A stretch of DNA of 64,000 bases, taken from contig NZ_JAVJSQ010000037.1 in the NCBI RefSeq assembly GCF_040219335.1, forward strand, positions 1 through 64,000. The letters are read 5' to 3'. The DNA is from Gimesia sp. (GTDB lineage Bacteria > Planctomycetota > Planctomycetia > Planctomycetales > Planctomycetaceae). The notes below the pieces were generated by a model. It was not told the origin of the DNA. It worked only from the letters and a program-made list of their open reading frames with translations, and did no database searches. Positions within the stretch are counted from its first letter, which is position 1; each line of letters starts with the position of its first letter. Positions 12,778 through 16,055 of this stretch are shown one piece after another. The translations under genes were made by a program, and so were the position numbers.

Positions 12778-12952
12778 GGGGGTGAATTCGGGTTTCCTGT
12801 GGAGATTATTTTCGTGGAGCCCTGCTCATTGGGATTATGATTCTGTTCTGCTGGTTTTCTGAGCTTAGAACGCGTCCCCAGAGCCTGAATCTGTCCCCCT
12901 CTTTGCTTACCGTAACAAATATGCATAGAATTATTTCACTTGATCGGGGTTG

Positions 12953-13201
12953 ATGATGAATCATTCAGAGTCGAATTTATTCTCAAGTGGATGTGTTGTT
13001 GAAAGTATGATGCTAACTCTGTATCGCGTCCAACTGACCGATGGACGCATTCTGGAGGCAGTTTTAGCTCCCGAGTTTCGACGTGCCGTTTCAAGAATCA
13101 GAAAACCTCTTAAGATCAACCCCGGTCAGAAAGTTGAAGTGGAACTGAGTCCCGATTGGGAAGAGGATAACCGCTGCCGAATAATCAAACTCATTGATTA
13201 A
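12953..13201 (+). CDS. IF-1-like single OB-fold protein
   Basis: The product is 82 residues. Residues 14-80 follow the IF-1/S1 OB-fold pattern: GCVVESMMLTLYRVQLTDGR for the first strands, then an A-x-L-A-P-E-F-R-R-A segment where IF-1 has the A-H-I-S-G-K-M-R-x3-I region, then GQKVEVELSPDW and the closing strand RCRIIKLI. The E-L-S-P-(D/Y) motif is characteristic of IF-1. The N-terminal dozen residues are extra compared with the usual 72-residue infA product. It is probably a paralogue; the true infA would normally sit with ribosomal protein genes, none of which are here. ATG 12956 or TTG 12950 are alternative starts. Confidence 0.7.
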   Translation: MMNHSESNLFSSGCVVESMMLTLYRVQLTDGRILEAVLAPEFRRAVSRIRKPLKINPGQKVEVELSPDWEEDNRCRIIKLID

Positions 13202-13252
13202 GAATCAAGAGCCCGGTTGCAACTGGGCCTGCCTCCTTTTCAGCAGAAACCA

Positions 13253-13747
13253 ATGATTAGAACTCAAGAAGACCTGCTTCAGGTTATTGACCAGTTTTCA
13301 TTCCCTGAAGTCTTCCGAGAGATCATTTCAGGTTCAATCCCGGAAGGATTGTCAGGTATTTGCGATCCCCCACTGGAATTTTCATATCCCATTTTTTTCA
13401 GACATCCAGAAGCATTTCCTGAGCCAGGGCAGTTATTGATTTTGTGGGACACGAATCAGTCCTCCATAACGGGGTTCTTAATGGATGATCAAATCTTTAT
13501 CAAATCATACTTAGAGGACGGACCTGAAGTTGATTCCGTGATTGCTGATAATTATCAACAGTTTGCCTGTCATATTATTCGGCAGTATTTCAATTCTTTT
13601 TCAAGTGTTGAAACCGCTGGGCTGCTAGCTCAACGATTTGAATTTAAATACTGGGAGGAAATGCTGCAGGTTTATACTGAAGCGGCGCATCACCCCGTCA
13701 GTGAATTGACAGAACAACTCGATCTATTTTCAGCCTCGCTCAAATAA
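13253..13747 (+). CDS. Hypothetical protein
   Basis: I do not recognise this 164-residue protein. It is acidic and has no signal peptide or membrane helix. A proline-rich part (residues 30-65) is followed by a strand-rich centre (GQLLILWDTNQSSITGF) and two long amphipathic helices. The overall size and the pattern of an early helix plus strands recall SMI1/KNR4 (SUKH)-type immunity proteins, but no diagnostic motif is visible. It lies 51 bp after the IF-1-like gene, with a small hairpin (13211-13228) between them. The base composition is more AT-rich than the neighbours, which suggests an accessory gene. ATG 13253 was chosen; TTG 13217 is possible. Confidence 0.55.
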   Translation: MIRTQEDLLQVIDQFSFPEVFREIISGSIPEGLSGICDPPLEFSYPIFFRHPEAFPEPGQLLILWDTNQSSITGFLMDDQIFIKSYLEDGPEVDSVIADNYQQFACHIIRQYFNSFSSVETAGLLAQRFEFKYWEEMLQVYTEAAHHPVSELTEQLDLFSASLK

Positions 13748-13829
13748 AACAGAGAACGGTTCTGCACACCTTGGGCTACACCGGCTTTGAGAGAAGTGGT
13801 TATCAAGATGACCGAAGAACTCTAGCCGC

Positions 13830-13857
13830 TTGTCCCGGCGGATGTGGGGCTTATAAT
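13830..13857 (+). promoter_or_regulatory. Promoter of the guanidinium exporter
   Basis: TTGTCC (13830-13835) and TATAAT (13852-13857) are 16 bases apart. The predicted start, near 13864, falls about ten bases before the first riboswitch hairpin, so the leader is just long enough to hold both hairpins. Confidence 0.65.
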
Positions 13858-13874
13858 GCCGGGAACACTCCCAT

Positions 13875-13921
13875 TGCAGGACGACCTGCATGTTTTTCCC
13901 GTCGGCGGGGACGACCCTGCC
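13875..13921 (+). promoter_or_regulatory. Guanidine-II (mini-ykkC) riboswitch
   Basis: Two hairpins each close an ACGA tetraloop. P1 is TGCAGG-ACGA-CCTGCA (13875-13890), a perfect 6-bp stem. P2 is GGCGGGG-ACGA-CCCTGCC (13904-13921), seven pairs including one G-U. The two loops can kiss through their CG bases. This is the known architecture of the mini-ykkC/guanidine-II class (paired hairpins with ACGR loops, just ahead of the start codon of guanidine-related genes). P2 ends nine bases before the weak ribosome-binding site (ACAGG) of the exporter that follows. Regulation at translation initiation is likely, as no terminator is visible. Confidence 0.88.
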
Positions 13922-13941
13922 ATAGCAGTGACAGGTGCGTT

Positions 13942-14259
13942 ATGGCATGGGTGATTCTTTTGGTGGCGGCGGTGCTGGAGATCGGCTGGGCGGTCGGGAT
14001 GAAATACACGGACGGTTTCACACGGTTGTGGCCCAGCGTGCTGACCATTGGCATGATGGCGGCGAGCATGTTCCTGCTGGCCCTGGCGGTCCGCACGATT
14101 CCGGTGGGCACCGGTTACGCGGTCTGGACGGGGATCGGCGCATTAGGGACGGCGGTGCTGAGTGCCTTCCTGTTTGGTGAACCGGTCACGATCTGGCGCG
14201 GGCTCTGTCTGGTGTTGATCGTGGGTGGCGTGCTGGGGTTGAAGCTTTCGGCTTCGTGA
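13942..14259 (+). CDS. gdx: SMR-family guanidinium exporter (Gdx/SugE)
   Basis: The product is 105 residues with four membrane helices, the standard SMR size. The invariant membrane glutamate is E13 (VLEIGWAVGMKY). The Gdx-type motifs G-M-K-Y-T-D-G-F-T-R-L-W-P-S and YAVWTGIGALGTAVLS distinguish it from the QacE/EmrE drug-export branch. Gdx proteins work as dual-topology dimers exchanging guanidinium for protons. The start at ATG 13942 is set by the family N-terminus (MAWVILLVAA) and by the riboswitch; the frame is open further upstream, but that part is leader RNA. Control by guanidine through the riboswitch fits the transport role exactly. Confidence 0.92.
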   Translation: MAWVILLVAAVLEIGWAVGMKYTDGFTRLWPSVLTIGMMAASMFLLALAVRTIPVGTGYAVWTGIGALGTAVLSAFLFGEPVTIWRGLCLVLIVGGVLGLKLSAS

Positions 14260-14295
14260 GTGGCGGGAGGTATCCTGCAAGCAGAGATTCTCTTT

Positions 14296-14325
14296 TTGAC
14301 ATCTCAGCAAACTTCATGGTATGAT
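14296..14325 (+). promoter_or_regulatory. Promoter of parD-like gene
   Basis: A perfect -35 TTGACA (14296-14301) and -10 TATGAT (14320-14325) are separated by 18 bases, 36 bases ahead of the parD-like start codon. The palindrome ATGATCAT (14321-14328) overlaps the -10 and is a candidate autoregulatory site. Confidence 0.75.
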
Positions 14326-14360: not shown

Positions 14361-14597
14361 ATGTCAACCGGTTATCCCCCAGAGATTCTCAAGTTCATCG
14401 AAGAAGAAATGGCCAGCGGTCATTATGAAGATGAAAGCGCCCTGGTTACAGAAGCGCTGGAGGTCTTTCGGGAGTTGAAGCAGAGACACGCCGAGCTGAA
14501 GCAGCAGATTCAGCAGTCTCTGGAAGCCGAGAGAGCAGGCCGGGTGATGCCCCTTGATATCGATGCAATCGTTTCAGAGCTGGAATCGTGTAGTTAA
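14361..14597 (+). CDS. Orphan ParD-like type II antitoxin
   Basis: The product is 78 residues. The N-terminal half has the ribbon-helix-helix pattern of ParD antitoxins (LKFIEEEMASGHYEDESALV, TEALEVFRELKQR). The C-terminal tail (SLEAERAGRVMPLDIDAIVS) is the toxin-wrapping segment, of the kind found in planctomycete and proteobacterial ParD pairs. It has its own consensus promoter and SD (AGGAGAC). The ParE/RelE toxin that normally overlaps or follows is absent: after 14597 come 60 bases without a fitting start, then an intergenic repeat. It may be a free-standing regulator or what is left of a pair. Confidence 0.8.
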   Translation: MSTGYPPEILKFIEEEMASGHYEDESALVTEALEVFRELKQRHAELKQQIQQSLEAERAGRVMPLDIDAIVSELESCS

Positions 14598-14660
14598 CGC
14601 TGATTGGCTTTCGGTTTTCAGTGTTGTATCGTTTCAGATGTTCGCAAGAGTGCTCTGGGA

Positions 14661-14708
14661 CCTCCTGTTCGCTGCGCTCACCCCGAATTGCATTCGGGGT
14701 TACCCGGT
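14661..14708. repeat. Dispersed intergenic repeat B, copy 1
   Basis: The block starts CCTCCTGTTCGCTGCGCTC and continues GAATTGCATTCGGGGTTACC. It matches 15944-15991 with about eight differences over 48 bases. It contains the palindrome CCCGAATTGCATTCGGGG-like core (CGAAT/ATTCG). It lies directly after the orphan ParD gene. Confidence 0.7.
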
Positions 14709-14742
14709 TAATTTGGATTTGACTTCTGATATCACTCCGGGT

Positions 14743-15943: not shown

Positions 15944-15991
15944 CCTCCTGCTCGCTGCGCTCGGCTTGAATTGCATTCGGGCTCACCCGAT
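15944..15991. repeat. Dispersed intergenic repeat B, copy 2
   Basis: CCTCCTGCTCGCTGCGCTC followed by TGAATTGCATTCGGGCTCAC. Matches copy 1 at 14661. It stands 65 bases before repeat A copy 2, so both repeat families meet here. Confidence 0.7.
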
Positions 15992-16055
15992 TCTGTTCGT
16001 GGAATATCATAGAACATGTTTCTTCATTCGGATGTTTTATACCAAACTCGTTTCA

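Follow-up and report, generated by a model that had tools for sequence, protein, structure and literature searches.

A guanidine-II riboswitch with its own promoter ahead of a predicted Gdx-type exporter gene in a planctomycete, and a possible exchange of riboswitch class within its family

Guanidine-II RNAs are defined by two GC-rich hairpins, each closed by an ACGR tetraloop (PMC5486947), which are separated by a linker known to range from 7 to 40 nt (PMC7544219). The class is generally regarded as a translational ON switch (PMC12186494, PMC5486947), and the proposed model places an anti-Shine-Dalgarno sequence in the linker (PMC9094411, PMC7544219). In simulations of one such RNA, the first hairpin (P1) was kept at high magnesium while the second (P2) opened against the linker (PMC9094411). 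Among the transporters associated with guanidinium, Gdx proteins conserve a tryptophan at position 16, where Qac proteins have glycine or alanine, and Gdx-Clo also carries substituted guanidinium compounds (PMC7695847). Guanidine-III was described in 2010 from Actinobacteria and delta-Proteobacteria (PMC2864571).

A literature search, which says little about subscription journals, returned no printed report pairing Planctomycetes with guanidine riboswitches; the texts that it found on ykkC and Planctomycetes draw, in the portions available, no link to guanidine riboswitches, and one of them lists SMR proteins in Planctomycetacia. The locus described here thus places predicted guanidine sensing in a lineage for which we found no such report. 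We analyzed a 64,000-nucleotide stretch of a contig from a Gimesia species (hereafter, “the window”), in which the following features are relevant.

13825-14292, + strand: conserved block of promoter, riboswitch and gene, delimited by comparison of same-genus genomes
13830-13857, + strand: sigma-70-like promoter (TTGTCC at 13830-13835, 16-nt spacer, TATAAT at 13852-13857), 10/12 consensus bases
13873-13919, + strand: match to RF01068 (Guanidine-II), 39.7 bits, model positions 1-48, single in the genome
13875-13890, + strand: P1 hairpin TGCAGG-ACGA-CCTGCA, 6 bp with an ACGA loop, from sequence check and cmscan
13891-13903, + strand: linker of 13 nt, whose bases 13896-13901 pair with 13906-13911 (P2 5' arm) in the minimum-energy fold of 13864-13962
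13904-13921, + strand: P2 hairpin GGCGGGG-ACGA-CCCTGCC, 7 bp including one G-U, with an ACGA loop, from sequence check and cmscan
13919-13924, + strand: 5' arm GCCAUA of a predicted start-codon hairpin, overlapping the P2 3' arm and exclusive with P2; pair probability 0.62-0.66 in the 99-nt fold and 0.93-1.0 in the 127-nt fold
13931-13937, + strand: Shine-Dalgarno-like ACAGGTG (putative SD, from sequence)
13941-13946, + strand: 3' arm UAUGGC of the predicted start-codon hairpin, containing the AUG, from folding
13942-14259, + strand: Gdx-type SMR exporter gene, 105 aa, from PF00893, structure alignment and residues; export function predicted

An initial annotation of this DNA had described two ACGA-looped hairpins, with P2 ending nine bases before the ribosome-binding site. 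The positions and stems prove exact, and the SD-like motif does begin nine bases after P2. The covariance-model search that the annotation had put forward as a check gives 39.7 bits over the full model, for which gathering is set at 32 (2 kb scanned by cmscan with all 4227 Rfam families, E 6.3e-6), and a one-model search of the 7.93 Mb genome returns this site as its sole match (E 5.9e-6). The score above gathering, the two GC-rich hairpins with ACGR tetraloops and the 13-nt linker agree with the definition of the class. Members also lie close to the ribosome-binding sites of genes for efflux or guanidine metabolism, and here the ATG of the SMR gene, at 13942, comes 22 bases past the end of the match. 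Across 50 Guanidine-II leaders of gdx genes, picked by a pattern rule, the pair types in both stems are compensatory: among 28 distinct P1 stems, pairs 3-6 are paired in 25-28 of 28 with four to five types each, and among 27 distinct P2 stems, pair 4 is paired in all 27 with four types, the outer pairs 5 and 6 being weaker (17 and 20 of 27). The element is well formed and unexceptional for its class, although the class is uncommon in this lineage, and it is predicted to sense guanidine.

The downstream gene was also correctly named as a Gdx-type SMR gene. Its 105-aa product scores 96.4 bits against PF00893, and the best solved relative is PDB entry 6wk5, which we take to be Gdx-Clo; residues 1-104 align to 1-104 without gaps, and E13, W16, S42, Y59 and W62 are all kept. 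From PF00893 together with W16, E13, S42 and W62, the product is assigned to the SMR family, Gdx subtype. It misses the cut-off of the NCBIfam SugE equivalog NF008512 (120.7 versus 126 bits) and is therefore filed as Gdx subtype only, not as a SugE equivalog. The three best named homologues include two from Planctomycetota MAGs (L089, L091), which are also the nearest named rows on the gdx tree, an indirect pointer to planctomycete origin. The same genome encodes a second, distant SMR protein (L184), 33% identical, with G16 and A42, and its 901-base locus contains no Rfam match over gathering. The annotation had further suggested a tie to free guanidine as a stress or nitrogen compound. Its use as a nitrogen source finds no support: no DUF1989 (PF09347) protein, the sole degradation gene searched for, was found in the window's genome, and guanidinium export alone is the simpler reading, though not a proven one.

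The TTGTCC/TATAAT promoter stands as well. In addition to its ten consensus bases, both boxes are unchanged in all four same-genus copies of the locus (the window included), and a promoter scan finds two promoter-like sites in 801 bases against a mean of 0.3 in shuffles. The 117-nt leader has exactly five variable sites among these four copies (13836, 13851, 13868, 13894 and 13923), all of them outside the two hairpins, the promoter boxes, the SD and the ATG. Similarity to the three relatives restarts at 13825 in each, and the DNA preceding this position differs: the window has about 1 kb (from 12800 or 12862 to 13824), G238 and G411 have in common some 740 bases of a different sequence, and G350 joins directly. 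Because the DNA before 13825 differs and the block is shared, promoter, switch and gene make up a unit of their own, next to a site prone to indels. Blocks adjacent to it are 94-97% identical in same-genus genomes, one farther block in G238 being 87% identical.

We also considered a recent mobile insertion of gdx and rejected it: three same-genus genomes have the block in the same position on the chromosome, and as the difference is confined to the segment immediately upstream, no independent insertion is shown. Five same-genus genomes with no close gdx (G181, G389, G299, G416, G069) offer no clean empty site by the downstream anchor gene, the region being variable. None of the 35 frames of the window that are longer than about 250 aa has a GC3 as high as the 0.81 of gdx (their median is 0.63 and their maximum 0.74). 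This is a hint of foreign origin, in a gene that is short and encodes membrane helices. The GC content over 12950-13747 is 43%, versus 53.6% for the window; this segment holds two AT-rich frames, one weakly similar to the translation initiation factor IF-1 (27-29 bits, under both curated cut-offs), and the three closest genomes either lack it or differ there. Past the gene, 14296-14325 contains a strong promoter-like site (TTGACA-18-TATGAT, 11/12) ahead of a ParD-like antitoxin frame at 14361-14597. A stretch of about 50 bases, at about 14656-14715 and at 15944-15992, matches several places in the relatives' loci at about 83% and is possibly a dispersed repeat.

We consider it highly probable that the locus has its own promoter and a Guanidine-II riboswitch that turns on translation of an SMR guanidinium exporter, with ligand binding, kissing of the loops, direction of control and guanidinium export being the inferred parts. 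Without ligand, P2 would tend to be open, its 3' arm GCCAUA (13919-13924) pairing with UAUGGC (13941-13946) at the start codon, and its 5' arm could pair with the linker; with the start-codon region covered, ribosomes would initiate poorly. RNAs of this class bind two guanidinium ions through kissing loops; here, binding would bring the two ACGA loops into a kissing contact that holds P1 and P2 closed, leaving the SD and start codon open so that the exporter is made.

The predicted folds of the window agree with control at translation, with mixed backing from relatives. P2 and the start-codon hairpin are mutually exclusive because they share bases. When 13864-13990 is folded alone, P1 forms at near 1.0 (outermost pair 0.80), P2 is at 0 and the start-codon hairpin is formed; the shorter fold of 13864-13962 splits about 2:1 between the start-codon hairpin and the P2 state. 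Opening the SD and start codon costs 10.3 kcal/mol in the free RNA versus 6.4 with P1 and P2 forced, a gain of 3.9 kcal/mol that 3 of 60 spacer shuffles match. Pairing of the start region with the P2 arm reaches 0.99 in the window, against a shuffle mean of 0.46 and with none of 40 shuffles reaching it. In the three other same-genus copies, which carry C at 13923, it is 0.63, 0.40 and 0.04, so the modeled start-codon pairing is unstable across close relatives. Among the 50 leaders, which are related and so do not provide independent tests, the opening gain exceeds the leader's own shuffle mean in 38 and not in 12 (median 1.49 versus 0.36), and start-region pairing is above 0.5 in only 19 and above the shuffle mean in only 26, the shuffles having kept base composition only. 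The initial annotation's suggestion of control at the level of translation agrees with the folding energetics, while the OFF hairpin that we propose for it is weak in some close relatives. Control at translation is likely on the modeled energies, and our confidence in the full mechanism is slightly lowered because the relatives' folding results are mixed.

The same riboswitch could instead rest mainly in an OFF state in which the 3' arm side of P1 (13884-13888) sequesters the SD (13932-13936). This pairing has a probability of about 0.33 in the 99-nt fold, an opening gain of 2.0-3.1 kcal/mol persists in the three relatives with C at 13923, and masking of the SD by the linker is the model proposed for the class (PMC9094411, PMC7544219). 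However, the SD pairing is absent from the 127-nt fold, in which the start-codon hairpin stands at 0.93-1.0, and the published anti-SD sits in the linker rather than in P1, and we regard SD sequestration as the less likely form of the OFF state, if a credible one. It is quite improbable that the hairpin pair is now unresponsive or senses a guanidine-like compound in place of guanidine: Gdx-Clo carries substituted guanidinium compounds too (PMC7695847), but stems and loops are unchanged in all four same-genus copies (the window included) and both loops are the canonical ACGA. Transcriptional control, with P1 and the T run following it as a weak terminator, seems more doubtful still. A terminator scan does flag 13875-13890 with its T-rich tail (2 sites found versus a mean of 0.8 in shuffles), but the stem has only six pairs and a P1 stabilized by ligand would switch the exporter off. 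Moreover, the T run is broken at 13894 in one same-genus copy (L034) and missing from a number of further Guanidine-II leaders of gdx genes (L010, L014 and L021 among them), and on this ground we rejected attenuation. That the hairpins arose by chance in GC-rich DNA is close to inconceivable, for although the phylum has matches to RF01068 that are probably due to chance (such as L023, at 32.1 bits in a stop-free frame of 1015 codons), this one has a genome-wide E of 5.9e-6, lies directly before gdx and is conserved in relatives.

The initial annotation had left open how common the class is in planctomycetes. Counted now, it is uncommon and patchy. RF01068 is found in 27 of 392 genomes of the phylum at E <= 1e-3 and over its cut-off in 22; of the latter, the window's family accounts for nine and family f14 for ten, with three outside both. 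In two of these three, gdx comes next (L005, L007), and the third is L023, so at least one of the 22 is probably a chance match. For their positions we treat as probable chance L023, inside an open frame, and likewise the weak matches L026 (680 codons) and L027 (874 codons, one strand), also in open frames, and L035, an acidic repeat in a 159-codon open frame; L022, L024 and L025 are under the cut-off. Within the window's family, 13 of 170 genomes exceed the cut-off, with gdx directly after the match in 12. The thirteenth (L020:1050-1549, - strand, 35.2 bits) precedes the gene of a 143-aa transporter of the chlorhexidine-efflux type (PF05232). Used as a query, this protein was found in only 1 of 170 family genomes. 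The survey missed L036 (29.5 bits) and L061 (unlisted), each with two ACGA hairpins before gdx. The window-type locus is present in four of the 17 genomes of the window's genus; in three, Guanidine-II accompanies a different gdx whose location is unrelated. Guanidine-I occurs in none of the 170 family genomes.

Two side observations may be added. Outside the genus, the closest relative in the family is L041 (G526), with a 70% identical Gdx. Its gene has no recognizable riboswitch in front, although others in the clade do, and a tRNA gene is found about 260 bases upstream. NMT1-like and DUF1989 genes serve guanidine uptake and degradation. All 13 fetched f14 loci hold a homologue of one or the other, the queries having been taken from two of those loci (L002, L013). 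Seven f14 loci (L002, L006, L009, L011, L017, L018, L019) contain opposed pairs of Guanidine-II matches, some 130-430 bases apart, adjoining NMT1-like and/or DUF1989 homologues.

Inspecting the leaders of gdx homologues without Guanidine-II, we found Guanidine-III (RF01763) in 15 of 170 family genomes, each time before a gdx homologue (L042, L048, L050, L053, L055, L057-L060, L062-L066, L169); across the phylum it is present in 12 of 392 genomes, and it has no match in the window's genome or the other 16 of its genus. In a quick 137-row gdx tree, all 24 genes with class III fall into a single group (96 SH-aLRT, starred), and the clade joining them with six class II rows reaches only 83 and 86 SH-aLRT and is not starred. 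A more careful 68-row tree was drawn from these rows, dropping as long or odd L184, L181, L182, L183, L187 (class III), L005 and L061 (class II) and L172, and also leaving out 61 named genome-contig rows. There, 23 class III genes make one clade (100/97), nested in class II clades (98/87 with two, 97/89 with six); both trees have 106 columns and many unresolved forks and, being unrooted, do not prove the direction of exchange. Class labels follow the pattern rule. Each of the 15 class III rows given to cmscan was confirmed, the other nine coming from the RF01763 search, and on 20 of 80 named loci cmscan confirmed 7 of 11 rule-called class II rows, leaving L093, L094, L099 and L136 under gathering, as are L036 and L061, which we counted as class II. 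One genus (g2) holds both classes, with class II in G024 and class III in G137 and G194. Since the class III clade is nested among class II genes, the trees fit replacement of one riboswitch class by another, and a single replacement of Guanidine-II by Guanidine-III ahead of gdx would be the simplest account.

A further change may have affected P1 itself. The P1 pattern GAGG-C[CA]ACGA-CCTC followed by a canonical P2 has exact matches in 3 of 170 family genomes (reversed control pattern, 0), and its six-base loop amounts to two extra bases 5' of ACGA. The leaders carrying it (L170, L171, L180; also L194-L196) precede Gdx-type genes, and the leaders of those three genomes score under Rfam gathering. 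The three variants and a doubtful fourth row (L179) form a clade in the 68-row tree (100/99), which lacks L172; in the 137-row tree L172, with no motif and no clear hairpin pair, falls among the variant rows, and the variant group then needs two changes. All four proteins of the clade keep E13, W16, S42, Y59 and W62. From sequence, we describe these leaders as a Guanidine-II-like variant in a related group.

A bolder reading is that planctomycete gdx retained its function through a change of its whole sensor: Guanidine-III, structurally unrelated, took the place of an older Guanidine-II on one occasion, a related lineage evolved the six-base-loop variant, and in the window's lineage the switch works by covering the start codon with the 3' arm of P2. 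We put it forward tentatively, with somewhat less than even confidence. The added interest comes from the family-wide comparison and not from the window alone. The family provides a clean case, with genus g2 holding both classes, for studying how one riboswitch class replaces another before the same gene.

Compared with known systems, the window's RNA shares with Guanidine-II (mini-ykkC) the two GC-rich ACGR-loop hairpins, a 13-nt linker, a downstream SMR exporter gene and a nearby ribosome-binding site. It differs from the published model in that its predicted OFF state uses the 3' arm of P2 to hide the start codon, and not a linker anti-SD to hide the SD. As in the simulated Guanidine-II RNA (PMC9094411), its 99-nt minimum-energy fold pairs the linker with the P2 5' arm. 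Guanidine-III (ykkC-III) also precedes gdx in the same family, presumably with ligand and target in common, and its fold is unrelated. Against Gdx-Clo, the 104-residue ungapped alignment shows E13, W16, S42, Y59, W62 and K101 identical in the window's protein, which has A10 where Gdx-Clo has G10, and its predicted substrate is guanidinium.
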